Notes under the pieces: model-generated | What the model was told of the DNA's origin: nothing | The model's database searches: none | Seen by the model: the letters and a program-made list of their open reading frames with translations, nothing else | Part shown: piece by piece, positions 39,051 to 55,262 of the stretch | Position numbering within the stretch: the first letter of the stretch is position 1 | Layout: each line of letters opens with the position of its first letter | Program-made: the position numbers and the translations under genes | Assembly: GCF_000299415.1 (NCBI RefSeq) | Contig: NZ_AMPG01000002.1 | Location: 434,001-498,000, forward strand | DNA from: Candidatus Microthrix parvicella Bio17-1 | GTDB lineage: Bacteria; Actinomycetota; Acidimicrobiia; Acidimicrobiales; Microtrichaceae | DNA length: 64,000 nucleotides | Direction of reading: 5' to 3'

Positions 39051-39224
39051 ATGACCTCGCCATCCGCACCACCCCGGCTGAGCCGATCAGTGCCCGCGAA
39101 GTTGCTGCCACCTCAGAGCGACCTCTGCCATCCCCCAAACGACCCTCAGCAAGATCAACCCGACGCCTGCGGCCCCGAAGCGAGTGTTTGGCGAGGTTTT
39201 TGGAATGAAGGAACACCCCAATGA
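39051..39224 (+). CDS. Small ORF coupled to cas3, function unknown
   Basis: 57 codons from ATG 39051, preceded by AGGAG at 39037-39041 with 9-nt spacing. Its TGA overlaps the cas3 ATG (ATGA), the same coupling seen between cas3 and csx17. The peptide is Pro/Gln/Asp rich with two Cys and ends G-F-W-N-E-G-T-P-Q. No domain is recognised. It could be a regulatory leader ORF, a genuine small Cas-associated protein, or chance. A 7-codon frame at 39204 also overlaps the cas3 start. Confidence 0.4.
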   Translation: MTSPSAPPRLSRSVPAKLLPPQSDLCHPPNDPQQDQPDACGPEASVWRGFWNEGTPQ

Positions 39225-41695
39225 ATGACATCTCGTCCGAGTTCGAGCGCATCACGGGCTTGCCCCCCTACCGATGGCAGCGACGCCTCGTCGAATCTGG
39301 GCTGCCCGAGACGCTGGAGATTCCAACGGGATGCGGCAAGACCGAGGCGGTGTTCATGGCCTGGGCTTACCGCCGCCGTCTCCACCCAGATCTCGCCGTG
39401 CGAGCTGCCACCCCCCGACGGCTGGTGATCGTCCTCCCCCAACGCTCACTGGTTGAGCAGACCCGGGATCGCCTGACCAATTGGGCAGCCAACGCTGGGT
39501 GGGCCGACGCCGACACCCCCGATCACCTGCCGATCCACGTGCTCATGGGCGGCGAGTCGGTTGACCGCTGGCAGCTCGCTCCGCACAAGGACGCCGTGAT
39601 CGTCGGAACGCTCGACATGGTGTTGTCGCGCAGCCTCAACCGGGGCTATGCCATGAACCGCTATGCCTGGCCCGTGGACTTCGGGCTACTCAACAACGAC
39701 TGCCACTACGTCCTCGACGAGGTGCAGCTCATGGGCGCCGCCGTGACCACCAGCCGACAGATGGACGCCTTTCGGCACACTCTGGGTACGGCAATCCCCT
39801 GCACCACGACGTGGATGTCGGCAACCCTTGATCCTGAGCGCCTCTCAACGGTGGACAACCCCACGGTGGCCAAGGCGTTCGCGCTACTACCGGACGAGAT
39901 GACGGACCGGCTGGCAGAGCGCCTCGGAGCCAAACGAACGGTTGCGCGCTGGTTCGGCGACGACACGTCGAACGCGCGGCCCGACAAGAAGCAGCTGCCA
40001 TCGCTGCGGGCGAAGGTCGTCGCCGACCGCCATCGGCCGGGCACGCTCACGCTTGTGGTCGTCAACCAGGTCGACGTGGCCAGGGAGCTCCACAAGCAGC
40101 TCAACAAACTCGTCATCGACGGGACGGAATTGGTGTTGCTCCACTCCCGCTACCGGCCTGCAGACCGGGCTGAGCAAATGCGGAAAGTGTTGGCCGTCCC
40201 CCCTGCCGAAGGCACGGTAGTGGTTACTACCCAGGTGGTTGAGGCCGGGGTCGACCTGAACGCGACCACGCTGTTCACAGAGTCCGCGCCGTGGTCGTCG
40301 ATCGTGCAGCGCTCGGGGCGCTGCAATCGCGACGGCAAGGTCATCGATGCTCACATGTTCTGGGATCCGCCCGTTTCTCCTGCGCCGTATGACATCGACG
40401 ATGCCGCTGCTGCCGAGGCACAGTTGACCCGACTGACCGGTCACGAGGTCACGACGGGTGAACTCGATGCGTTGGAGGTGGCCGAGTCGGGCGGCGAAGA
40501 ACCGCTCGTGTTGCGGCGCCGTGACCTGTTGGGTCTCTTCGACACCACGCCCGACCTCACCGGCAACGACCTCGACATCGCTCCGTTCCTTCGCAGCGGA
40601 GACGATCTCAGCGTCTGGGTGTGCTGGCGTGATCTCGCCGAAGACGGTCAGCGCACTCCCAACCGCGATGAGCTGTGCCAGGTTCCGGTCGGTCAGCTCA
40701 CCGCCTGGTTGAAGAAGAAGTCCTCCTCGCGCAAGCCAACTGCATTACGTCTGGAGCATGTCGGTCGACGAACCAAAACGTGGGTAAACCTGGGCACCGA
40801 ACGGGTGCGGCCCGGCATGGTGCTGATGGTGAATGCCGCTCTCGGCGGCTACTCACCCGACACGGGATGGGACCCCGCTGGAACGCAGCCCGTGCCACCG
40901 CCCCGCTCCGCCGCTGAAACGCCTCCGGCAGGCAGCGGTGTGCAGCCCGACATGGCACCGCTGGACGAGCGGGAGGGCGACGACCCCGCCACCTACGCAG
41001 GTCGGTGGATGACGTTAGAGCAGCATCTTCAAGATGCTGGCAACGATGCTCATGATCTCCTGGCTGCGATGGACACCCCAGGTCTGGATTCTCACCACCG
41101 TGCCGCCGCCATCCGTGCGGCACGCCTTCACGACCTTGGCAAGGCCCACCCGGTATTCCAGGCAACGCTGAAGGCAGCCGCTGGGGAGGACCCGATTCCC
41201 ATCGCGGGGCCTTGGGCCAAGTCGGGATCCTCCAAACGGGCCCATCACAGTCGCCCCTACTTCCGCCACGAGCTCGTCTCGGCCCTAGCGCTCCTAGGGG
41301 GCGCCAGTTCGCTCCTGGATGGCTACGAGGAACGCAGCCTGATTTGCTACCTCACGGCCGCGCACCACGGAAAGGTGCGGACCGCTATTCGGTCCATGCC
41401 CGAAGAGCGGTTACCCGACGAGTATGAGGGTCCTCCAGGCAGCCGGATCGCCCTGGGGGTCATCGATGGTGACGAGCTTCCCGCAGTGACCGTGGACGGG
41501 CAGGTGGTCGGCCCGATGACTCTCGACCTCATGGTCATGGGCGCTGGCGGCACCCCCACTGGGCCTTCATGGACCTCGATGGCCCAAGCCTTGGTCGATC
41601 GCACCGATCTGGGGCCATTCAGATTGGGGTTCTTGGAGGCGATCGTTCGAGTGGCCGACTGGCGAGCAAGCGCAATGACGGAGGCCAACCGATGA
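39221..41695 (+). CDS. cas3: CRISPR-associated helicase-nuclease Cas3, type I-G
   Basis: 824 residues. The superfamily 2 helicase comes first: Walker A I-P-T-G-C-G-K-T-E (Lys40), D-E-V-Q box near 167, M-S-A-T, then V-E-A-G-V-D and Q-R-S-G-R-C-N-R-D-G. The HD nuclease is C-terminal: H-D-L-G-K at about 637 and A-A-H-H-G-K near 710. Helicase-then-HD is the I-G/I-U order, reversed from type I-E. It degrades DNA recruited by Cascade. ATG 39221 has GAAGGA at 39206-39211. It overlaps csx17 by 4 bp. Confidence 0.92.
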   Translation: MNDISSEFERITGLPPYRWQRRLVESGLPETLEIPTGCGKTEAVFMAWAYRRRLHPDLAVRAATPRRLVIVLPQRSLVEQTRDRLTNWAANAGWADADTPDHLPIHVLMGGESVDRWQLAPHKDAVIVGTLDMVLSRSLNRGYAMNRYAWPVDFGLLNNDCHYVLDEVQLMGAAVTTSRQMDAFRHTLGTAIPCTTTWMSATLDPERLSTVDNPTVAKAFALLPDEMTDRLAERLGAKRTVARWFGDDTSNARPDKKQLPSLRAKVVADRHRPGTLTLVVVNQVDVARELHKQLNKLVIDGTELVLLHSRYRPADRAEQMRKVLAVPPAEGTVVVTTQVVEAGVDLNATTLFTESAPWSSIVQRSGRCNRDGKVIDAHMFWDPPVSPAPYDIDDAAAAEAQLTRLTGHEVTTGELDALEVAESGGEEPLVLRRRDLLGLFDTTPDLTGNDLDIAPFLRSGDDLSVWVCWRDLAEDGQRTPNRDELCQVPVGQLTAWLKKKSSSRKPTALRLEHVGRRTKTWVNLGTERVRPGMVLMVNAALGGYSPDTGWDPAGTQPVPPPRSAAETPPAGSGVQPDMAPLDEREGDDPATYAGRWMTLEQHLQDAGNDAHDLLAAMDTPGLDSHHRAAAIRAARLHDLGKAHPVFQATLKAAAGEDPIPIAGPWAKSGSSKRAHHSRPYFRHELVSALALLGGASSLLDGYEERSLICYLTAAHHGKVRTAIRSMPEERLPDEYEGPPGSRIALGVIDGDELPAVTVDGQVVGPMTLDLMVMGAGGTPTGPSWTSMAQALVDRTDLGPFRLGFLEAIVRVADWRASAMTEANR

Positions 41696-44067
41696 ACCAG
41701 CACGATTCCCCAACCAGGATCCATGACCACAACCGGGTCGTGCTCGCCGGCCTGGACGCTGCCGTGCTCGGCGAATACCTGGCGGCCATCGGGCTTCACC
41801 GCCTCGTGGCGGGTCAGGCAGATTCCGAGGCAACGCTGAGCTGGCGTGGCTCCACGCCCGTACTTGTCACCGGTCTGTCGTTGGCCCAAGTACGTGAGTT
41901 CCTGTTGGATGATGCTCAACCTGCGCCGCTGGTCGCCCCATGGAACGGCAAAGACGTCGGTGGTTTCCACACGACCGAAAATACCCGTGGCACGCGTCTG
42001 TGGGAACTCTTCCGCAACTCGACCCAAGACCGCCTGGCTGCGTATCGGGCGACGATCTTGGCTGTCGACCACGCCGTGGGGCGCTACGGGTGGGCCCACA
42101 ACCTGGCAGGTGACGAAAAGGCCTTCGCCATCAGGGTGCTCCGCAACACGCTGCCCGACGCGGCGCTCGACTTTCTCGATGCGTCTGTGGTGATATCCGA
42201 CGATTCCGTTCGTTACCCACCGTTGCTGGGAACCGGCGGCAACATCGGTCGCCTCGACCTGGTGCTCAACTATGCCGAGCATCTGGCGTTGTTGCTTGGA
42301 TTGACCGACCCCCCAAAGCGAGGTGCTCCACCCGACCCTGCGATCTGGTTAGACGAGGTATTCGATCCGGCTCCTCAGCCGCGCGTCAAGGGCACCCCGG
42401 GTCAATACGACGGCGCCGGGGTCGGTGGAACCAACCTCGGCAGGCGCAGTGATGGGCGAGCATTGGTGAACCCCTGGGTCTACGTGCTCGGCATGCACGG
42501 AACGCTCGCCTTTGCTTCCGCGATGAGTCGCCGGCAGGGTGCTGATAGCGGGATTGCCTCCGCACCCTTCTACGTCATCGGCGTGGCCGCCGACTATGCC
42601 TCAGCAGCCGAGTCCGAACCGGGCAAGGGCGAGTTCTGGGCCCCAATCTGGGATCAGGGCCTGACAGCGGCCGAGATCAGCGCTCTGGCGGGCGAAGGCC
42701 GCATGGAGTGGCGCGGTCGTCAGGCCCGCACCGGGACCGACGCCGTCCGCTCCCTCAAGGCCTTTGGCGTTGACCGGGGCATTAGTCGCTTCGAGCGTTT
42801 CGGGTTCATCGAACGGAACGGGCAGGCGCCGGTTGCAGTGCACGTCGGTAACTACGCCACCTCTGACGAGCCACGAGTTCGCCTCACCGCACACCTCGAC
42901 CGTTGGGTCGACACCCTCAATCGGGTCGGGGATGACCGAACCCCAGCGGGTGTTCGCACCACACGACGTCGCCTCATCCGAACTCTGTTCGTTGCCGGCG
43001 CGCGTCCGTCGCCCGAGACGCTGCGTGGTTTGCTGGTGGCCGCCGCGAGCGCTGAGCGGGCCGCGTCTAGGTCAACCGGGTTCCGTGAGAGCGCATCGCT
43101 CAGCCCAATTCAGCCACTCAATAGCCATGAATGGCTTCCAGAGTTGGACGACGGCTCCGTCGAATTCGGTATCGCTGCTGCCCTCATGTTGGGTAGAGAC
43201 TCCGTGCCACCCGGCGACCGCGCCCACCTCTCAGAAACCATCGAAGGTGCCCCGACCACCCTCCGAGACTGTCTGCGCGCCACCCAACCCACCCTGGAGA
43301 AGTACGAGCGGCTCGAATGGGCCCGAAACGGTCCGACGGTTCCGGGATTGGGCGAGCGCCCAATCGGGGATGTTCTCGCTGACGTGATGGTGTTGCGTTC
43401 CCACACGCGGCATGACCCAATCGTCCGCCCGGGCGACGATGTCCCACTCCCGTTTCGCGGGATCCGGCCCCAGTTTGGCGGTGTGTGGCATTGGCGGGTA
43501 CCCGCCTCCCATGCCGAGGAGTTCGCGGCCGGACGTTGCGACCAGTCGTTGCTGTCAGAGTGGCTGGAAGCGCTGCTGCTACTGAGCCCGCTACACCCGT
43601 GGGCCACTAAGGATCGTGACGACCAGTCCGAGCCGGACAGACGGACCGCCGCGATGGAACCGGTATCCATTGGCGCCAGCCCACTTTGGCGGATGTTGGC
43701 CCCGTGGGCCTCGGGCCTCGTCCTGCGCCCAACCGGAGAATCAAGGGTGGCAACCGTGATGCCCAGCACCTGGCCAACCCGACTCCGAGCCGGATCGGTG
43801 GCCGACGTAACCGCAGATGCGATCAATCGCTACGCCATGTCTGGCCACATCGCGATCCTCGGTAGATCCGGGGTTTCGGCACTCGCTACTGCCGCCGACG
43901 CCAAGGCGGCACGGCTCACACTCGGGGCGTTGCTCGTTCCCACGCGAGTCGACGACCTGTCCCACATCTTCGGCAGCAACACCATGCCCATGGTCGGCGC
44001 CGGTGCTGACCTCACCGCTCGGGACAAGCAAACCCAAGCAGCCGCTGACGAACCCGTCACTCAGTAG
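41692..44067 (+). CDS. csx17: Csx17 (Cas8-like large subunit), type I-G
   Basis: 791 residues. The start V-L-A-G-L-D-A-A-V-L-G-E-Y-L-A-A-I-G-L-H-R, the length and the position between cas3 and csb1 identify Csx17, the large subunit (Cas8u2/Cas8g) thought to recognise PAM and DNA. W-V-Y-V-L-G-M-H-G-T-L-A-F-A-S-A lies in the middle. No catalytic motif is expected or seen. The ATG is inside the cas3 stop (ATGA). Confidence 0.85.
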   Translation: MNQHDSPTRIHDHNRVVLAGLDAAVLGEYLAAIGLHRLVAGQADSEATLSWRGSTPVLVTGLSLAQVREFLLDDAQPAPLVAPWNGKDVGGFHTTENTRGTRLWELFRNSTQDRLAAYRATILAVDHAVGRYGWAHNLAGDEKAFAIRVLRNTLPDAALDFLDASVVISDDSVRYPPLLGTGGNIGRLDLVLNYAEHLALLLGLTDPPKRGAPPDPAIWLDEVFDPAPQPRVKGTPGQYDGAGVGGTNLGRRSDGRALVNPWVYVLGMHGTLAFASAMSRRQGADSGIASAPFYVIGVAADYASAAESEPGKGEFWAPIWDQGLTAAEISALAGEGRMEWRGRQARTGTDAVRSLKAFGVDRGISRFERFGFIERNGQAPVAVHVGNYATSDEPRVRLTAHLDRWVDTLNRVGDDRTPAGVRTTRRRLIRTLFVAGARPSPETLRGLLVAAASAERAASRSTGFRESASLSPIQPLNSHEWLPELDDGSVEFGIAAALMLGRDSVPPGDRAHLSETIEGAPTTLRDCLRATQPTLEKYERLEWARNGPTVPGLGERPIGDVLADVMVLRSHTRHDPIVRPGDDVPLPFRGIRPQFGGVWHWRVPASHAEEFAAGRCDQSLLSEWLEALLLLSPLHPWATKDRDDQSEPDRRTAAMEPVSIGASPLWRMLAPWASGLVLRPTGESRVATVMPSTWPTRLRAGSVADVTADAINRYAMSGHIAILGRSGVSALATAADAKAARLTLGALLVPTRVDDLSHIFGSNTMPMVGAGADLTARDKQTQAAADEPVTQ

Positions 44068-44123: not shown

Positions 44124-45098
44124 ATGCCCACCCAACGAACCGTCCTCCGAGTGCAAATGCGACCCATCGCCGGCTCCCGCTTTCAACCGACTGGGTTCCC
44201 CGACCTCGGGCCTGCGACCTTCCAACGGCCCGTCGGCGAAACCGAGATGCAGCAGTGCGTACTGGTGGAGTCGAACCAGTCGATGGCCAACCGGTTGGAG
44301 GGCACGCTGTGGTCAGAGGGCGACCAGGCCCCGGTCGAGATGATTGCGGCCCTCCCATGGATTCGAGTCACCGCCGCCGATGACGGGCGCTACGTCACAT
44401 CGAGCCGCACCGAAGCCCACCGATTGGCGAGTGCCTTCGTCAAGCAGTCCGAGCTCGACGGTGTTGGCATGACCGAGACCATCAAGGAGCGTCTGGCTCT
44501 TCGCGACGACACGCCGCTTGCACCACGGCATCTGGCTCGTGCGATCTTTGCGCTCGACCCGATGTGTCTCCTCCATGGTGTGTTCTTTGCCGACTCGGCC
44601 TGGCCCGGTCAACCCAAGGTGGCCCGGGCCATCACTGGAGCAGTAGAGGCCCACGATGTCGCCGAGGCTGTGTCAGGCGGTGTGAAGTTTGACCGTGTTC
44701 GCCATTCACTCGGCGAGTCTGAAGGCGGCACAGCCGAGGGGTATGGCACCGTGCCGTTCCACCGTATGGAGTTCACTGCGCGCTCGATCGAGGCCACGTT
44801 CGTGCTGGACCTTGCCCAACTGGATGCGTACGGTTTGCCCGAAGGGCCTCGCGATCTACTGGAAGCCTTGGCGCTGTGGGAAGTGCGTTCGCTCATCGAC
44901 GGCGGCATGCGCCTGCGTACAGCCTGCGACCTGGAACCGATCGAGGCTGCCGACCTCAGCGAGCTGCCCGAGGCCGCGGAACTTGAGGACCGGATCGGCA
45001 CCGCAATCACGGCAAGCGGTGATCTGCTGCCCACGACCGGACCGATCGACGTGATCTGGTCGGGCGGCAAGGCCAGTAAGAAGAAGGGCGAGAAGTGA
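44124..45098 (+). CDS. csb1: Csb1 / Cas7 (GSU0053 family), type I-G backbone
   Basis: 324 residues. The family start P-I-A-G-S-R-F-Q-P-T-G-F-P-D-L-G-P-A and the internal V-E-S-N-Q-S-M-A-N-R-L-E match Csb1, the RAMP/Cas7 subunit that coats crRNA. The C-terminus is basic (K-A-S-K-K-K-G-E-K). AAGGAG lies just ahead of ATG 44124. A 56-bp gap separates it from csx17, the largest inside the operon. It overlaps csb2 by GTGA. Confidence 0.88.
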   Translation: MPTQRTVLRVQMRPIAGSRFQPTGFPDLGPATFQRPVGETEMQQCVLVESNQSMANRLEGTLWSEGDQAPVEMIAALPWIRVTAADDGRYVTSSRTEAHRLASAFVKQSELDGVGMTETIKERLALRDDTPLAPRHLARAIFALDPMCLLHGVFFADSAWPGQPKVARAITGAVEAHDVAEAVSGGVKFDRVRHSLGESEGGTAEGYGTVPFHRMEFTARSIEATFVLDLAQLDAYGLPEGPRDLLEALALWEVRSLIDGGMRLRTACDLEPIEAADLSELPEAAELEDRIGTAITASGDLLPTTGPIDVIWSGGKASKKKGEK

Positions 45099-46624
45099 GC
45101 CTGAACGTCCAAGTCTCGTTCCCTCTGGGCCGCTATCACGCTACCCCTTGGGATCGACACGTCAACGAAGGGGCCGTCGAATGGCCACCCTCGCCGTGGC
45201 GCATGGTTCGAGCCCTGATCGCGGTGTGGCACGATCGGTGCCCCGAACTCGATCAGCCTGACGTGGTGCAGGTGCTCAACGTGGTGGGAGCGTCGCCTAC
45301 CTACCACTTACCGCGATCGGTTGCTGCTGGCACGAGGCACTACTACCCCGGAAGCGCTCAGCAGCTGCCAACGAAGCCCGACACCTCGAAGGTGCTCGAT
45401 ACGTTCCGTGCTGTCGATCCGGCGGCGGTGGTGCAGATCACGTGGCCCGGCGAGCTGAGCGAACAAGCTCGCAAGGCTGCGACGGTGCTCTTCGAACGCA
45501 TGAGTTATCTGGGCCGGGCCGACAGTATCTGCGAAGCGAGGGTGGTGACACCTGCCCTGTCGAACCACCCCACTGCCGACCCGCCCCACGAAGTCACACC
45601 GGACCCAGACGGCGAGCTCGCCCTGCTTTCGCCCGGGTTGCCGATCGATCTTGGCCAGGTGACCGTCGGTACCGACGCCATGCGAAGCGCTGGGTATGCC
45701 CAGCCCAAGGGATCTCACCTTGTGCGTTTCCGGGTATCACCGCCCCTCGAACGCTCCGCAATCCGGGCTACCCGGGTCCCACCTTCGCGTCGCCCGAACC
45801 CTACGGTTGCGGTTCTGGCGGTATCAGGGCGCCCCGCGCCGATGCATGAGCTGAGCCTGGTGGTCGCCGAACGAGTTCGGAGTGCATTGCAGAGCGTGTA
45901 CGGCCAGCGGTCAGATCGAGCAACGAGCCCAACCTTCGCGGGACATCGTGCAGGCGTGGTCGACAGTCCCGCTCGCCTCGACGATCACCAACATCTGCAT
46001 CTGCTCCCCGTCGCAGGCGCCGACCGAAGGATCGATCGCATCATCGCCTGGGCACCAGAGGGGTTCGGCCCAGCCGAGGTGGCCGCCCTGGCGGAAGTCA
46101 GTGCCGTGTACCCACCGGGACAGTCGCCGGGTAGGAGGCAACCACCATCCGGACGGTCCCAACGCCAGGTCGTCCGGGGTCTGGCGACGTTCCACGTTGT
46201 ACTCGCTGCATTGGGGGAACCCGACGAGATCCTTGCGGCATCGTCGGGACTCGATCTGGTTGGCCCTTCCCGGGTATGGCGGTCCTTGTCTCCCATGATG
46301 CCCACCGGCCATCCGAACCGACAGGACCGCGCTGACGCTGACCGCATGGGCGGCGTCTCGCTTCGCTTCGTCCGGCGGCGCATGGCTCCCGAGCTCCGCT
46401 ACCGCAGCAAGGCCGAGCCAACCTCGGTGGAGTTCCTCGATCAGCCACCTCGGCCAGCCCAGCGATACCGCAGACATCGGATCGGAGCAACGATCAAAGA
46501 TGCTCGCCCTGCAACCTGGCTCCGTCTCACCTTCGATGCCGAGATCGCTGGCCCGCTATCGCTCGGGCGGTTCAGCCACCTTGGCCTTGGACTCTTCGAA
46601 CCCGAACCCTCCAAGATCCGATAG
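45095..46624 (+). CDS. csb2: Csb2 / Cas5-Cas6 fusion (GSU0054 family)
   Basis: 509 residues from GTG 45095, which overlaps the csb1 stop by 4 bp. N-terminal L-G-R-Y-H-A-T-P-W and W-P-P-S-P-W-R-M-V-R-A-L fit the Cas5 part; the C-terminal L-G-L-G-L-F-E-P is the glycine-rich loop of a Cas6-like RAMP. This protein should cap crRNA at the 5' end and process the precursor, which explains why no separate cas6 is present. Catalytic residues cannot be fixed by eye. Confidence 0.86.
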   Translation: MSLNVQVSFPLGRYHATPWDRHVNEGAVEWPPSPWRMVRALIAVWHDRCPELDQPDVVQVLNVVGASPTYHLPRSVAAGTRHYYPGSAQQLPTKPDTSKVLDTFRAVDPAAVVQITWPGELSEQARKAATVLFERMSYLGRADSICEARVVTPALSNHPTADPPHEVTPDPDGELALLSPGLPIDLGQVTVGTDAMRSAGYAQPKGSHLVRFRVSPPLERSAIRATRVPPSRRPNPTVAVLAVSGRPAPMHELSLVVAERVRSALQSVYGQRSDRATSPTFAGHRAGVVDSPARLDDHQHLHLLPVAGADRRIDRIIAWAPEGFGPAEVAALAEVSAVYPPGQSPGRRQPPSGRSQRQVVRGLATFHVVLAALGEPDEILAASSGLDLVGPSRVWRSLSPMMPTGHPNRQDRADADRMGGVSLRFVRRRMAPELRYRSKAEPTSVEFLDQPPRPAQRYRRHRIGATIKDARPATWLRLTFDAEIAGPLSLGRFSHLGLGLFEPEPSKIR

Positions 46625-46627
46625 GCC

Positions 46628-48274
46628 ATGGGCTCACTTCCCGCCGTCGTGCCAGCCCGCATGGTCAACGAGTTCGCCTATTGCCCACGCCTCTTCCACT
46701 TGGAGTGGGTAGGTCGGGAGTGGGCAGACAACGCCGATACCGCTGAGGGAGATCACCAGCACCGACGTGTCGACCAAGCTCGGGGCAACATCTCCGCCGA
46801 TGGGCTGCCGTTCTCCGCAACATCGATGAAGGTCACGTCTGACCGCTTGGGGTTGACGGCCGTCATCGACGTGTTGGAAAGCGACGGCACCGAGCTGCGG
46901 CCCGTCGATGTCAAGAAGGGCAAGCCACCTCCAGCGCACTACGAGGAGACCGCGTGGCTGAGTGATCGCGTCCAGTTGTGCGTGCAGGCGCTGATTCTGC
47001 GTGACCATGGCCACCTGTGTAACCACGGAGAGCTGTTCTACGGTGCCACCCGCCAACGGGTCGTCGTACCGATCAACGACGAGCTGTTGACGACCACCCT
47101 GGCCATGCTGCTGGAACTCCGAACGGTCGCAGCAGAGCCGGTGCCGCCACCACCATTGGTAGACAGCCCGAAGTGTCCTCGTTGCTCGCTGGTCTCGATC
47201 TGCCTCCCAGACGAGAAGAACACGCTGACGCAACGACAAGCCACACCCACCCGCCGATACCTGGCCAGAGATCCGTCGTCCAGGCCCCTGCACGTCACCG
47301 AGCAGGGGGCGCGCTTGTCCAAGAAGGGCGAACGACTGCTGGTCATCAAGGGTGACGAAGAACTGGGATCACTTCGCCTCATCGACGTCGTATCGGTGTC
47401 GCTCCACGGCAACATTTCGGTTTCGCCCCAGCTGCTTCGAACGTTGTTGCGCAAGGACATCACCGTGGCGTGGTTCAGCACTGGCGGATGGCTCGATGGC
47501 GTCGGAACCAGCGGATGGAGTGGTTCGGTGGAGCTTCGCCGCCGTCAGGTTCTCGCAGCCGAACGAGGGGCGGTGCACCCGGCCAAGGAGATCGTCCGCG
47601 GAAAGGTAGCCAACAGTCGAACCATCCTCAGACGAAACACGCGAACTGGGGCGAAACAAGAGCTGCGCGAGTTGGCTCGCGTACTGCGATCCCTCGACAA
47701 CGTGTCCGACCAGGCGACGCTGCTTGGTTCCGAGGGAAACGCCGCCCGTGTGTACTTCTCAGCGTTCTCGTCGATGCTCGCCCCTCGGGAGTTCCCAGGG
47801 GGGAGTTTCCAATTCGACGGGCGTAACCGTCGCCCGCCCAAGGATGCCGTCAACGCTTTGCTCTCCTTCGTCTACGGATTGATCGTGAGAGATCTCACCG
47901 GCGCAATCACGGTTGTGGGGCTCGATCCTTACTGCGGGCTTTACCACCGGCCCCGTTTCGGGCGACCGTCCCTTGCTCTCGATCTGGCTGAGGAATTCCG
48001 GCCGCTCGTCGGGGACTCGGTGGCGATATCACTCATCAACAACGAGGAGATCAACCCCGGGCATTTCATCCAACGCGGCGAGGGTGTCGCCCTCACCAGC
48101 GATGGTCGCCGGAAGGTCATCGCCGCCTACGAGCGGCGACTCGATGTCGAGGTCAAGCATCCGATCTTCGGCTATCAGGTCACCTACCGGCGCCTCTATG
48201 AGCTTCAGGTGAGGTTGCTTGCGGGATGGTTGATGGACGAGATAGAGCGGTACGAACCGTTCGTCACCAGGTGA
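46628..48274 (+). CDS. cas4-cas1: Cas4-Cas1 fusion adaptation protein
   Basis: 548 residues. The Cas4 nuclease part (1-about 205) has the four Fe-S cysteines Cys19, Cys183, Cys186 and Cys192. The Cas1 part starts near 215 (L-H-V-T-E-Q-G-A-R-L) and has catalytic Glu369 (G-S-E-G-N-A-A-R), His440 (L-Y-H-R-P-R-F-G-R-P) and Asp452/Glu455 (D-L-A-E-E-F-R-P). The fusion couples prespacer trimming and PAM choice to integration, as in Geobacter I-G. It is 3 bp after csb2. Confidence 0.93.
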   Translation: MGSLPAVVPARMVNEFAYCPRLFHLEWVGREWADNADTAEGDHQHRRVDQARGNISADGLPFSATSMKVTSDRLGLTAVIDVLESDGTELRPVDVKKGKPPPAHYEETAWLSDRVQLCVQALILRDHGHLCNHGELFYGATRQRVVVPINDELLTTTLAMLLELRTVAAEPVPPPPLVDSPKCPRCSLVSICLPDEKNTLTQRQATPTRRYLARDPSSRPLHVTEQGARLSKKGERLLVIKGDEELGSLRLIDVVSVSLHGNISVSPQLLRTLLRKDITVAWFSTGGWLDGVGTSGWSGSVELRRRQVLAAERGAVHPAKEIVRGKVANSRTILRRNTRTGAKQELRELARVLRSLDNVSDQATLLGSEGNAARVYFSAFSSMLAPREFPGGSFQFDGRNRRPPKDAVNALLSFVYGLIVRDLTGAITVVGLDPYCGLYHRPRFGRPSLALDLAEEFRPLVGDSVAISLINNEEINPGHFIQRGEGVALTSDGRRKVIAAYERRLDVEVKHPIFGYQVTYRRLYELQVRLLAGWLMDEIERYEPFVTR

Positions 48275-48281
48275 CGGTGCC

Positions 48282-48572
48282 ATGGCTCGGCGCAGATTCG
48301 TGGTCTGTTACGACATCGCCTCGCCAGCGCGGTGGAGGCAGGTGTATCGGATCATGCAAGGCCATGGCGAATGGATCCAGCTCTCCGTCTTCTTGTGCGA
48401 CTTGGACGACGTGGAACGAATCCGACTTGAGAGTCTGCTGGCTGAGGTGATCCACCACCGGGATGATTCCGTATGCTTTGCCGACCTTGGCCAAGTCGAG
48501 AAGGATGCAGTGAAGGTAGTCTTCATGGGCAAATCACGAAGACTGCCAAATCCCGGGCCGGCGATCTTCTAA
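48282..48572 (+). CDS. cas2: Cas2 endoribonuclease-fold adaptation protein
   Basis: 96 residues. The ferredoxin-fold start F-V-V-C-Y-D-I-A-S-P (Asp11) and R-W-R-Q-V-Y-R-I-M-Q-G-H-G are typical. It should form the Cas1-Cas2 integrase core. It is 7 bp after the cas4-cas1 stop and ends the operon; the array leader follows directly. Confidence 0.93.
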   Translation: MARRRFVVCYDIASPARWRQVYRIMQGHGEWIQLSVFLCDLDDVERIRLESLLAEVIHHRDDSVCFADLGQVEKDAVKVVFMGKSRRLPNPGPAIF

Positions 48573-48744
48573 GCGAGCGCTCGGGTGATGGACATTCCCC
48601 CGGGCAGCGCTCGAAACCCTTGAGCCACCGGGAGGTTTGGTTGGTCTTTGACAACAGCATCAGGATGCGATGACCCACCGTCGTTGGGACCGCTCGAAAT
48701 CGCCCGAAAGATACCTGCTCTCCCAAGGGCTCCCATCAGGGGCC
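48573..48744 (+). promoter_or_regulatory. CRISPR leader
   Basis: 172 bp between cas2 and the first repeat without a gene. A TTGACA hexamer at 48648-48653 suggests the array promoter, though the -10 is weak. CGCTCGAAA occurs twice (48608-48616, 48691-48699). The last 18 bases form an imperfect hairpin with the same ATCA loop as the repeats (48727-48745). Confidence 0.7.
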
Positions 48745-51700
48745 CTTCCCCCGGCCATCAGGCCGGGGCTCCATTGCGGCATTCTGTACCGCCTTATCTA
48801 TTTGTTGAATGAGATAGCTTCCCCCGGCCATCAGGCCGGGGCTCCATTGCGGCAGCACGCCACCATCGTGTCCGGTCCCGACGGGGTCGCGCTTCCCCCG
48901 GCCATCAGGCCGGGGCTCCATTGCGGCAGGTAGTTGGCTCTGGTGAGGCCATGGCTCCGGGCTATCTCTTCCCCCGGCCATCAGGCCGGGGCTCCATTGC
49001 GGCGGGTTCCGCGCGATCGCTGACCGGTGGGTGTTCGATGGCGCTTCCCCCGGCCATCAGGCCGGGGCTCCATTGCGGCGACCGTCCTGCCGGTTGCTGA
49101 CGGTACCGACGCCGGCTTCCCCCGGCCATCAGGCCGGGGCTCCATTGCGGCGATACGACACCGATCTTCCAGTCGGCGGTGCAGGCGCGCTTCCCCCGGC
49201 CATCAGGCCGGGGCTCCATTGCGGCGGTCGATGGCACCTACATTGCCCGCTGGCCTGATGCCCTTCCCCCGGCCATCAGGCCGGGGCTCCATTGCGGCCA
49301 GGTGGCGTCCAAGGCCGGCAACACGAACCGGCACTTCCCCCGGCCATCAGGCCGGGGCTCCATTGCGGCACGGTGGCCCGGTCGGTGCTCCGTGATGGCA
49401 CGATCCCTTCCCCCGGCCATCAGGCCGGGGCTCCATTGCGGCCGCGTCACGCCGGTGACGTCGAACACGACGGTGCCGGACCTTCCCCCGGCCATCAGGC
49501 CGGGGCTCCATTGCGGCGGGTGGGATGCGTTCCCGGAGTCGGCCGGAACGTGGGAGCTTCCCCCGGCCATCAGGCCGGGGCTCCATTGCGGCGCTGGGGT
49601 GTTGCTCATTGGGTTGCCTCCTGGCAATTGCTTCCCCCGGCCATCAGGCCGGGGCTCCATTGCGGCGTCTCGATGCTGCTTGCGGCGGTCCGCTTGCTCC
49701 ACCTTCCCCCGGCCATCAGGCCGGGGCTCCATTGCGGCCTGATTCACGGTGAGGGTGACCGGTTCGCTCAGCCGTCTTCCCCCGGCCATCAGGCCGGGGC
49801 TCCATTGCGGCGAAGTGCCCGAGCTGCTCCACGACCAGTTGGGCAAGCTTCCCCCGGCCATCAGGCCGGGGCTCCATTGCGGCGAGGTGGAGTTGGGTCG
49901 ACTTGTACCGCTCGCGGAGGACTTCCCCCGGCCATCAGGCCGGGGCTCCATTGCGGCGACACGATCATCGGCAAGCTCCAGGAGACTCAGGGCGACCTTC
50001 CCCCGGCCATCAGGCCGGGGCTCCATTGCGGCGAGACGGCGAGGAGCCGTGAGGTTTCCTCCGATGTGGTCTTCCCCCGGCCATCAGGCCGGGGCTCCAT
50101 TGCGGCTGGTTGGATCCGGCCCCGCTGATCGACGAGGCCCGCGACTTCCCCCGGCCATCAGGCCGGGGCTCCATTGCGGCATGAGTGCCAGCCGTTGGGC
50201 TGGGGGGCCAAACTTGCCTCTTCCCCCGGCCATCAGGCCGGGGCTCCATTGCGGCGGGTCAGCCCTTCGCTGCGGCGACAGCGGAGTTTGCGGCTTCCCC
50301 CGGCCATCAGGCCGGGGCTCCATTGCGGCTTCCAGTGCTGCGTTGTCATCAGAACATCAATCTGAACTTCCCCCGGCCATCAGGCCGGGGCTCCATTGCG
50401 GCGAGGTCCGCCCCGAGCGCTGCGCCATGTGCAGGGGTACTTCCCCCGGCCATCAGGCCGGGGCTCCATTGCGGCAGCGACCTCCAATTGATCCTCCGGG
50501 ACTAGCTCCCGGACTTCCCCCGGCCATCAGGCCGGGGCTCCATTGCGGCTGGTCGAGCTAGGCACATCGCCTGTAGGGACTGGGCGGCTTCCCCCGGCCA
50601 TCAGGCCGGGGCTCCATTGCGGCTCTCTGGTGATCAGCATGGATCACACCAACACTGGGACTTCCCCCGGCCATCAGGCCGGGGCTCCATTGCGGCAGTG
50701 CCTGGTCGACGGGGGACAGCAGGCCGATCACAGGCTTCCCCCGGCCATCAGGCCGGGGCTCCATTGCGGCGTCGAGCAGACGGATGCGGACACATACGAT
50801 CTGAACCTTCCCCCGGCCATCAGGCCGGGGCTCCATTGCGGCATCGCCACGGTCACGTTCGTTGGCTGACCGAAGTCTGACTTCCCCCGGCCATCAGGCC
50901 GGGGCTCCATTGCGGCACGGTTCGGTTGGCCGCCTTGGGGAACGATGGTTAAGCCTTCCCCCGGCCATCAGGCCGGGGCTCCATTGCGGCATCTGGGACA
51001 ACGCCGACCGCGAAGCTCAGCTGCTCCGCTTCCCCCGGCCATCAGGCCGGGGCTCCATTGCGGCGCCGCGACGTCGTCGGTCTCGGCGAGCTGTTCGCGC
51101 AGCTTCCCCCGGCCATCAGGCCGGGGCTCCATTGCGGCAGTACTGACGAGATCGAACGCGCTGGCCGCCGGAAGACTTCCCCCGGCCATCAGGCCGGGGC
51201 TCCATTGCGGCGCTGCCGGCGGTGAGTCGGTGGCGGTCGAACTCGGAACTTCCCCCGGCCATCAGGCCGGGGCTCCATTGCGGCAGCGTCAGCCCCGCCG
51301 CCCAGCGCTTCACGTGGCCGCTTCCCCCGGCCATCAGGCCGGGGCTCCATTGCGGCTGGGACTTGATTGACTTGATCTCGGCGCCGCACGCGAGCTTCCC
51401 CCGGCCATCAGGCCGGGGCTCCATTGCGGCGGAACGCCGATCGTCATACCGCCGAACGTCGGCCCCGCTTCCCCCGGCCATCAGGCCGGGGCTCCATTGC
51501 GGCGTGCCACGCAGGTCGAGGGCGGCACGCAGCGCAGCGGGCTTCCCCCGGCCATCAGGCCGGGGCTCCATTGCGGCTGTGAGACGTGTGGGTCCTCGCC
51601 CGTGTAGGGGTGCCCTTCCCCCGGCCATCAGGCCGGGGCTCCATTGCGGCCCAAGGGTCTGGCGGATGCCGCCCAGGTGTCGACGCCTTCCCCCGGCCAT

Positions 51701-54700
51701 CAGGCCGGGGCTCCATTGCGGCGGTCATCGATCGACGATGAGGGGTCAAGGCTGGCCCGGGCTTCCCCCGGCCATCAGGCCGGGGCTCCATTGCGGCACC
51801 GCGAACGGGGCAACCCGTTCGGGTGTTTCCTCGGCTTCCCCCGGCCATCAGGCCGGGGCTCCATTGCGGCGCCGTCGATCCACACGATGCGCTCGTTCAC
51901 GCTGGTCCTTCCCCCGGCCATCAGGCCGGGGCTCCATTGCGGCCGGATCAACATGCCGACCGGTGTGTCGTCGTGGGCGTGGCTTCCCCCGGCCATCAGG
52001 CCGGGGCTCCATTGCGGCGTGGCGGTCGCAGGCTGGCCACTTGAGCCGGATGTCAGTCTTCCCCCGGCCATCAGGCCGGGGCTCCATTGCGGCACCAACA
52101 TCGTGGCGGGCAACAACGCCGCCAGCTACCCTTCCCCCGGCCATCAGGCCGGGGCTCCATTGCGGCTGCCCGTTAGTGCGTGCCTCGACGTACTGGCGCC
52201 ACGTTCTTCCCCCGGCCATCAGGCCGGGGCTCCATTGCGGCTACTGCCCGTTCCAGTCACCGAGGTCGTGGGCCGAGCTTCCCCCGGCCATCAGGCCGGG
52301 GCTCCATTGCGGCAGCCACGATGTCGCATGGGCGACGAACTTGGGGTCGCTCCTTCCCCCGGCCATCAGGCCGGGGCTCCATTGCGGCTGCCCCGTCCGC
52401 ACGTTCGCGATCGTCCTGCGCAGGTACTTCCCCCGGCCATCAGGCCGGGGCTCCATTGCGGCCCGGGGGTCGGGATCGTCGCGCCAGATAGCTGCGTAAC
52501 TTCCCCCGGCCATCAGGCCGGGGCTCCATTGCGGCACCGAGTCGACGGCGTACCGCCATCACAGTGGGTGCACTTCCCCCGGCCATCAGGCCGGGGCTCC
52601 ATTGCGGCCTCCTCATCGGTCAATCATCATCATCGTGACTCATGGCTTCCCCCGGCCATCAGGCCGGGGCTCCATTGCGGCAGGGCGATCGAGACCGTTG
52701 CGGTCATCCCTGCGTCCCCCTTCCCCCGGCCATCAGGCCGGGGCTCCATTGCGGCACGTTGGGGAACGTGACTGCACCCGGCGAGGGCGAGACCTTCCCC
52801 CGGCCATCAGGCCGGGGCTCCATTGCGGCGTGGCGCGTAGGTCGAGGGCCGCACGGAGCGCGGCGGGCTTCCCCCGGCCATCAGGCCGGGGCTCCATTGC
52901 GGCTCGACGAGGGGGGTCAGCGTGTCGATCAGGTCGGCGACTTCCCCCGGCCATCAGGCCGGGGCTCCATTGCGGCCCCTGGATGTTCAGCAACACGTCG
53001 GCGACGTCGCCCGCCTTCCCCAGGCCATCAGGCCAGGGGCTCCATTGCGGCACCCCGTCGACGTCCGGCGTAGCGTCGCACGGTACCCCGCTTCCCCCGG
53101 CCATCAGGCCGGGGCTCCATTGCGGCTCGTCCGCCTTGTGGACAGAATGACAGTGTTCAGAGCTTCCCCCGGCCATCAGGCCGGGGCTCCATTGCGGCGC
53201 CACTCGCAACGCCTGGCGCACAACGGCCGCCTACCTTCCCCCGGCCATCAGGCCGGGGCTCCATTGCGGCGGGCAGGTTGCGTTGCCGGTGATAAAGGCG
53301 CTGGCCACGGCCTTCCCCCGGCCATCAGGCCGGGGCTCCATTGCGGCGTCTTGGCCATGGCGCTGTTGAGCGCCTGCGCCTCAACTTCCCCCGGCCATCA
53401 GGCCGGGGCTCCATTGCGGCGCTGATTCGTCGTATGCGGATGCGTCGGCGCACGGTGCTTCCCCCGGCCATCAGGCCGGGGCTCCATTGCGGCTCGGTCG
53501 ACGGGAACGACTTGCCCTGGTGAACAGCAACTTCCCCCGGCCATCAGGCCGGGGCTCCATTGCGGCGACGAGTCCGACCGGACACAGAAGGGTTGGCTTG
53601 ATCCTTCCCCCGGCCATCAGGCCGGGGCTCCATTGCGGCTCCGAGGGCGCAGGCACCGCGCTCGCCACCGCATCCTACTTCCCCCGGCCATCAGGCCGGG
53701 GCTCCATTGCGGCCGAAGGTCCGGAGGGCGACACGACGTCGCTGGGTGAACTTCCCCCGGCCATCAGGTCGGGGCTCCATTGCGGCTGGTAGTCCCGCTC
53801 GGCCTGCTTACACGCCTCGTCGAGCTTCCCCCGGCCATCAGGCCGGGGCTCCATTGCGGCGGCGACTGGGTGCTCTCACAGTTGGCGATCGGGTTCGCTT
53901 CCCCCGGCCATCAGGCCGGGGCTCCATTGCGGCCACCCGACGGGAGGTCTAGCAGTGATGAGCCAGTGGCCTTCCCCCGGCCATCAGGCCGGGGCTCCAT
54001 TGCGGCTCTTGCTCCGCGTGTCGTGACGACGGTTCCGGTGAGCTTCCCCCGGCCATCAGGCCGGGGCTCCATTGCGGCACCGGTTACGGAACGGTGTTTC
54101 TCGCCCGCATCCTCGGACTTCCCCCGGCCATCAGGCCGGGGCTCCATTGCGGCGCGTAGTGCAGCTAGGGCCACGCCGTAGGGTAGGCCAACTTACCCCG
54201 GCCATCAGGCCGGGGCTCCATTGCGGCGTGTCGTCGCGGTAGTCGTCGAGAAGCTTCTCGACCTTGCTTCCCCCGGCCATCAGGCCGGGGCTCCATTGCG
54301 GCCACGATGATGGGATCACGACTGTGCACACGTGCCCCCGCTTCCCCCGGCCATCAGGCCGGGGCTCCATTGCGGCTGGGTGACGCGGCTGATGGTGACG
54401 GTCAGGTAGCTCGCTTCCCCCGGCCATCAGGCCGGGGCTCCATTGCGGCCATCGGCACGTCGACCCCGTCAGGCCACGCCCTGAGTCTTCCCCCGGCAAT
54501 CAGGCCGGGGCTCCATTGCGGCGCGGGGTCTTTGATCAGCCACGGCAGCTCGGCCCTGACTTCCCCCGGCCATCAGGCCGGGGCTCCATTGCGGCGAGGA
54601 TCCGGCCGGCGCGATGAAGGTCCTCGAAGCGTCGTCTTCCCCCGGCCATCAGGCCGGGGCTCCATTGCGGCGGGGCGTCGGGGGTCACTGTGCCAGTGGT

Positions 54701-55262
54701 GGACGGACTTCCCCCGGCCATCAGGCCGGGGCTCCATTGCGGCCACAGCCACTGTGCAGCGGTGGCGATCCCGGTGGCCACCTTCCCCCGGCCATCAGGC
54801 CGGGGCTCCATTGCGGCCCCATAGTGCGAGAACGCACCGCACGTTTCCGGCGCCACCTTCCCCCGGCCATCAGGCCGGGGCTCCATTGCGGCGAGCTCGA
54901 GCGGCTCTCGTTCGATAGGTGGGGATCGAACTTCCCCCGGCCATCAGGCCGGGGCTCCATTGCGGCAACCGGGCGGCGAAGGTCCGCAGCAACACGTTGC
55001 GTGCTTCCCCCGGCCATCAGGCCGGGGCTCCATTGCGGCCATCCCCACACACCCCGAAGGAAACACGACCATGACACTTCCCCCGGCCATCAGGCCGGGG
55101 CTCCATTGCGGCGCTTGGCTGGTGTTGTGCACGGTTGTGCTCGTCACAGGTCTTCCCCCGGCCATCAGGCCGGGGCTCCATTGCGGCTAGCCGCCGGTGT
55201 CAGCCGCGCGTGTCTTGTACCCCCAGCTTCCCCCGGCCATCAGGCCGGGGCTCCATTGCGGC
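48745..55262 (+). CRISPR. CRISPR array, 89 repeats of 36 bp and 88 spacers
   Basis: I located each repeat start by hand from 48745 to 55227 and counted 89. The unit is 36 bp with 8-bp arms CCCCGGCC/GGCCGGGG around ATCA and a 3' tail ending ATTGCGGC; spacers are about 35-41 bp (mean near 37.7). Degenerate copies are at 53015 (37 bp, A substitution in the left arm, A insertion in the right), 53751 (position 19 T), 54192 (position 4 A) and 54487 (position 12 A). All are in the distal third, so the leader is at the cas2 end and the array is transcribed on the plus strand. Spurious open frames run through it because the repeat carries no stop in most frames. Confidence 0.98.

Follow-up and report, generated by a model that had tools for sequence, protein, structure and literature searches.

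Two diverged spacers in a type I-G CRISPR array of 'Candidatus Microthrix parvicella' as probable captures of one site

The CRISPR array described here, in a 64,000-nucleotide stretch of the 'Candidatus Microthrix parvicella' Bio17-1 genome (the window), contains two spacers, 38 and 56, that are close relatives of each other. They probably stem from independent captures of one protospacer on separate occasions, from two related but diverged forms of a mobile element, whether a phage or a plasmid. Judged from sequence, the captured site most likely lies within a protein-coding gene. That the differences between the two spacers arose outside the array is the best-supported view, since the repeats vary little and the neighbours of the pair are unrelated.

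The type I-G locus and its array

A complete type I-G gene set stands beside the array, with six cas genes on the + strand, each of which is matched by its NCBIfam model above cut-off (Table 1). As listed, the cas8g open reading frame shares 127 bases with the 3' end of cas3g; the match to the Csx17 profile begins only at residue 58, and therefore the real start of cas8g probably lies further downstream, near 41690-41740. Two relatives in the family have a cas4-cas1 of 50% identity, located on short stretches. A CRISPR locus of 'Candidatus Microthrix parvicella' with six cas genes and a large spacer pool has been described in a wastewater time series (PMC7752763), and the locus in the window resembles it in having six cas genes.

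Table 1. Features of the type I-G locus and CRISPR array, in window coordinates.
Feature	Position	Strand	Evidence or remark
cas3g (type I-G helicase-nuclease)	39221..41695	+	NCBIfam TIGR02621, 724 bits
cas8g1/csx17, ORF as listed	41569..44067	+	NCBIfam TIGR04113, 359 bits
cas7g/csb1	44124..45098	+	NCBIfam TIGR02570, 81 bits
csb2 (Cas5-Cas6 type)	45095..46624	+	NCBIfam TIGR02165, 129 bits
cas4-cas1 fusion	46628..48274	+	NCBIfam NF049935, 706 bits
cas2	48282..48572	+	NCBIfam TIGR01573, 27 bits, barely above cut-off
Presumed leader, cas2 to first repeat	48573..48744	+	Position; variant repeats at opposite end
CRISPR array, 89 repeats and 88 spacers	48745..55262	+	Array parsing
Spacer 38	51504..51541	+	Presumed later capture of shared site
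Spacer 56	52830..52867	+	Presumed earlier capture of shared site
Variant repeat, two changes and one extra base	53015..53052	+	Bounds uncertain by 1-2 nt
Other variant repeat	53751-53786		
Other variant repeat	54192-54227		
Other variant repeat	54487-54522		

The repeats are 36 nt long; 85 of the 89 are exact and 4 are variant, and variation among them is ~0.19% (about 0.2%) per base. All four variant repeats fall within the distal 40% of the array, from 53015 onward, and would thus serve as a natural marker of its old, distal end. The repeat folds into a hairpin of -18.9 kcal/mol with an 8-bp stem and a 12-nt 3' tail terminating in ATTGCGGC. Together, the hairpin with its 3' tail, the side on which cas2 lies and the distal position of the variant repeats suggest that crRNAs carry the + strand sequence and that new spacers enter the array next to cas2. 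Spacer lengths range from 35 to 41 nt, with 38 nt in 27 of 88. Several spacers can be read as plausible coding peptides, an example being spacer 31 (IWDNADREAQLL).

Similarity of the two spacers and codon phase of their differences

Spacer 38 (GTGCCACGCAGGTCGAGGGCGGCACGCAGCGCAGCGGG, 38 nt) and spacer 56 (GTGGCGCGTAGGTCGAGGGCCGCACGGAGCGCGGCGGG, 38 nt) are identical at 32 of 38 positions, with zero offset and identical boundaries, and differ at positions 4, 6, 9, 21, 27 and 33. An earlier note on this DNA had given the same lengths and the same six differences, and its positions proved exact on re-parsing of the array. This is the best of the 3828 spacer pairs, with 32 matches at zero offset against 21 for the runners-up; the spacer pairs ranking next, 44/75 and 23/56, are at noise level. 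Since both spacers are GC-rich and rich in Ala, Leu and Arg codons, it could be argued that two unrelated GC-rich coding fragments have come to look alike by chance. However, in 300 sets of 88 random 38-mers drawn from the window no pair matched at more than 26/38 positions, and in 300 sets taken entirely in coding phase none at more than 25/38; no random set reached 32/38. Because these maxima fall so far short of 32, chance and a shared codon bias are excluded as the source of the resemblance, and we give this reading almost no weight.

Positions divisible by three account for five of the six differences, with P=0.008 if that phase is specified and P=0.032 if any phase is allowed, and when the same six substitution types were placed at random sites, one amino-acid change or fewer in the best frame resulted in 1.8% of trials; these P values were computed post hoc, the pattern having been spotted before it was tested. 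The wobble signal is genuine but moderate, at P about 0.02-0.03, and is suggestive, not conclusive. The claim of the earlier note that five of the six differences share one codon phase is therefore confirmed, although the effect is modest (P about 0.03, any phase). Five differences of synonymous type point to long divergence and away from a fresh escape mutant, for which a divergence of 16% is in any case too large.

In minus frame 1 both spacers encode PAALRAALDLR followed by G or A, so that one residue is changed; plus frame 1 gives V P/A RRSRAARSAA, likewise with one residue changed. Multiples of three in a 38-mer are third positions of frame 1 on either strand, and both strands consequently fit the wobble pattern. 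The fit to the codons of the cas genes of the window, expressed as mean log frequency, is -3.54/-3.61 for the minus strand against -4.09/-4.07 for the plus strand, and thus codon usage alone favours the site being coded on the minus strand; the crRNA would then be complementary to the mRNA. The Ala/Leu-rich minus-strand peptide put forward previously does exist and is favoured by its codons, but plus frame 1 fits too. Similarly, wobble divergence in a selected gene had been proposed: that the two sequences diverged under coding constraint while outside the array is indeed the best-supported account, but the wobble pattern does not settle it.

Source of the two spacers

Blastn of spacers 38 and 56 against INPHARED gave partial matches only, at E 0.04 or worse among the matches listed, and a single query of the 88 spacers concatenated with N had no match at E 0.5 in the same collection (50,697 phage records). 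Against PLSDB the two spacers gave two weak partial matches and no protospacer, and their patterns with the wobble positions left free gave zero matches in IMG/VR. The check suggested with the original observation, a comparison with phage and virome contigs, thus yielded no protospacer in INPHARED or IMG/VR. Two IMG/VR matches to the back-translated peptide AALRAALDLR lie in unrelated genes and share with the spacers no more than the pattern itself, and two GTDB contig matches, one in a TonB-type protein and one in an unrelated ORF, were judged to be chance. Wobble patterns of spacers 7, 11, 17, 19 and 31, with which source elements and a PAM were sought in IMG/VR, matched nothing; none of the searches yielded a protospacer beside whose 5' end a type I-G PAM could be read.

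The host genome, which is 95% complete and comprises 4202850 bases in 13 contigs, was searched with as many as 3 mismatches allowed and the wobble positions left free; this gave no copy apart from the two spacers themselves, and therefore the spacers are not self-derived as far as the genome is assembled; a search of 397 genomes of the host's order for the spacer site gave zero matches. Models for the portal (PF04860) and the terminase ATPase (PF03354) had no match in the whole host genome, which thus has no obvious tailed prophage of these portal and terminase families. Across all these searches, which used exact patterns, patterns with mismatches and patterns with free wobble positions, no credible source came up. 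The collections searched seem to contain hardly any of the host's mobile elements, so that a missing protospacer says little. In the time-series report, 64 spacers of the 'Candidatus Microthrix parvicella' population match plasmids and 24 match phages (PMC7752763), and a phage source is not to be assumed for this reason. Of the earlier proposal that one site was captured twice from related phages, the two captures are the best-supported part; the source may be a plasmid as well as a phage, no protospacer having been found.

Three further origins of the pair can be weighed against these results. Natural arrays do contain duplicated spacers, near-identical ones in Bifidobacterium among them (PMC12915315), and a spacer could be duplicated in the array by repeat-repeat recombination and then mutate. 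Yet the pair carries six changes per 38 nt, against ~0.2% per base in the repeats, and the differences track codon phase. At the repeat rate of 0.19%, six changes in a 38-nt copy would have P about 1e-8, a value that presumes equal mutation of repeats and spacers and no homogenisation of the repeats, neither of which is certain. Independently of this rate argument, the neighbours of the two spacers are not duplicated: 38+k and 56+k show no resemblance for k from -8 to 8, which excludes block duplication. An intra-array origin of the pair is thus very unlikely. Equally small is the probability that both spacers are aimed not at a mobile element but at a family of host or host-like genes present in many copies; Ala/Leu/Arg-rich peptides are frequent in high-GC host proteins, but matches are absent from the host genome and from the genomes of its order, and the GTDB contigs contributed nothing beyond the two chance matches.

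The alternative that deserves more attention, although we still think it unlikely, is that one element carries two paralogous or internally repeated gene segments, such as those of an Ala/Leu-rich helical repeat, and that each segment was captured once. Third-position divergence is expected of paralogous copies too, the peptide PAALRAALDLR is helical-looking, and a site duplicated within one element would give the same picture as two elements. Against this, the identical boundaries of the spacers demand that the PAM be conserved in both copies, and no two-copy element is present in the searched collections, though no one-copy element is either.

Proposed sequence of captures and its significance

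If the spacers are two captures of one site from diverged relatives, Cas4-Cas1-Cas2 would have acquired the same 38 bp on both occasions, next to the same PAM, with the leader-distal spacer 56 acquired first and the cas2-proximal spacer 38 later. The seed of type I systems comprises positions 1-5 and 7-8, every sixth nucleotide being flipped (PMC11127173); these are general rules of type I and Class 1 systems and are assumed for the I-G system considered here. If the crRNA is oriented as the repeat hairpin and the location of cas2 indicate, the difference at position 4 falls in the seed. The site of the later relative would thus mismatch spacer 56 at seed position 4 and also at 9, 21, 27 and 33; the difference at position 6 would lie in the flipped-out register and probably have little effect. 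The spacer 56 crRNA should then bind the later relative poorly and give weak or no protection, and because of this a second capture, as spacer 38, would be useful and a gain for the cell. It is possible that the capture of spacer 38 was primed by the weakly matching spacer 56, but priming is not required.

In the type I-C system of Legionella pneumophila, overlapping spacers are directed against LME-1, the older ones with a seed or PAM mismatch and the newer ones perfect (PMC5071653). The Microthrix pair is similar in that an older and a newer spacer would address the same region of an element, the older with a seed mismatch; it differs in that the Legionella element is known and matched perfectly by the newer spacers, whereas no source of the Microthrix pair was found in the collections searched, and in that it belongs to subtype I-G and combines exact shared boundaries with 16% divergence (PMC5071653). 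Near-identical repeated spacers have also been described in Bifidobacterium animalis subsp. lactis, in arrays that are mostly I-E with one I-G (PMC12915315). There too, in the portion of the article available, spacers of one genome lie a few nucleotides apart and are sorted by seed difference; divergence in coding phase is not described in that portion, and some of the copies are identical, which array duplication fits as well. For 'Candidatus Microthrix parvicella' itself, paired diverged spacers go unmentioned in the part of PMC7752763 at hand.

With 3000 PAM sites, the expected number of coincident pairs runs from ~0.01, if one tenth of the spacers come from one family of elements, to 1.3, if all do. 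About one such pair is therefore expected if the 88 spacers derive in large measure from one family; if only one tenth of them do, the pair would be a ~1% event and a hint of a hotspot. Only tentatively, then, might the site be regarded as a hotspot, captured repeatedly within a conserved mobile-element gene, at which the array updates its memory of the same 38 bp as the lineage diverges by ~16%; we are inclined to doubt it. The pair is a clean, isolated and ordinary example of a kind already described. Were its sources to be found, it would date two encounters with one invader lineage within a single array, and would show how much divergence a type I-G spacer tolerates before recapture pays.
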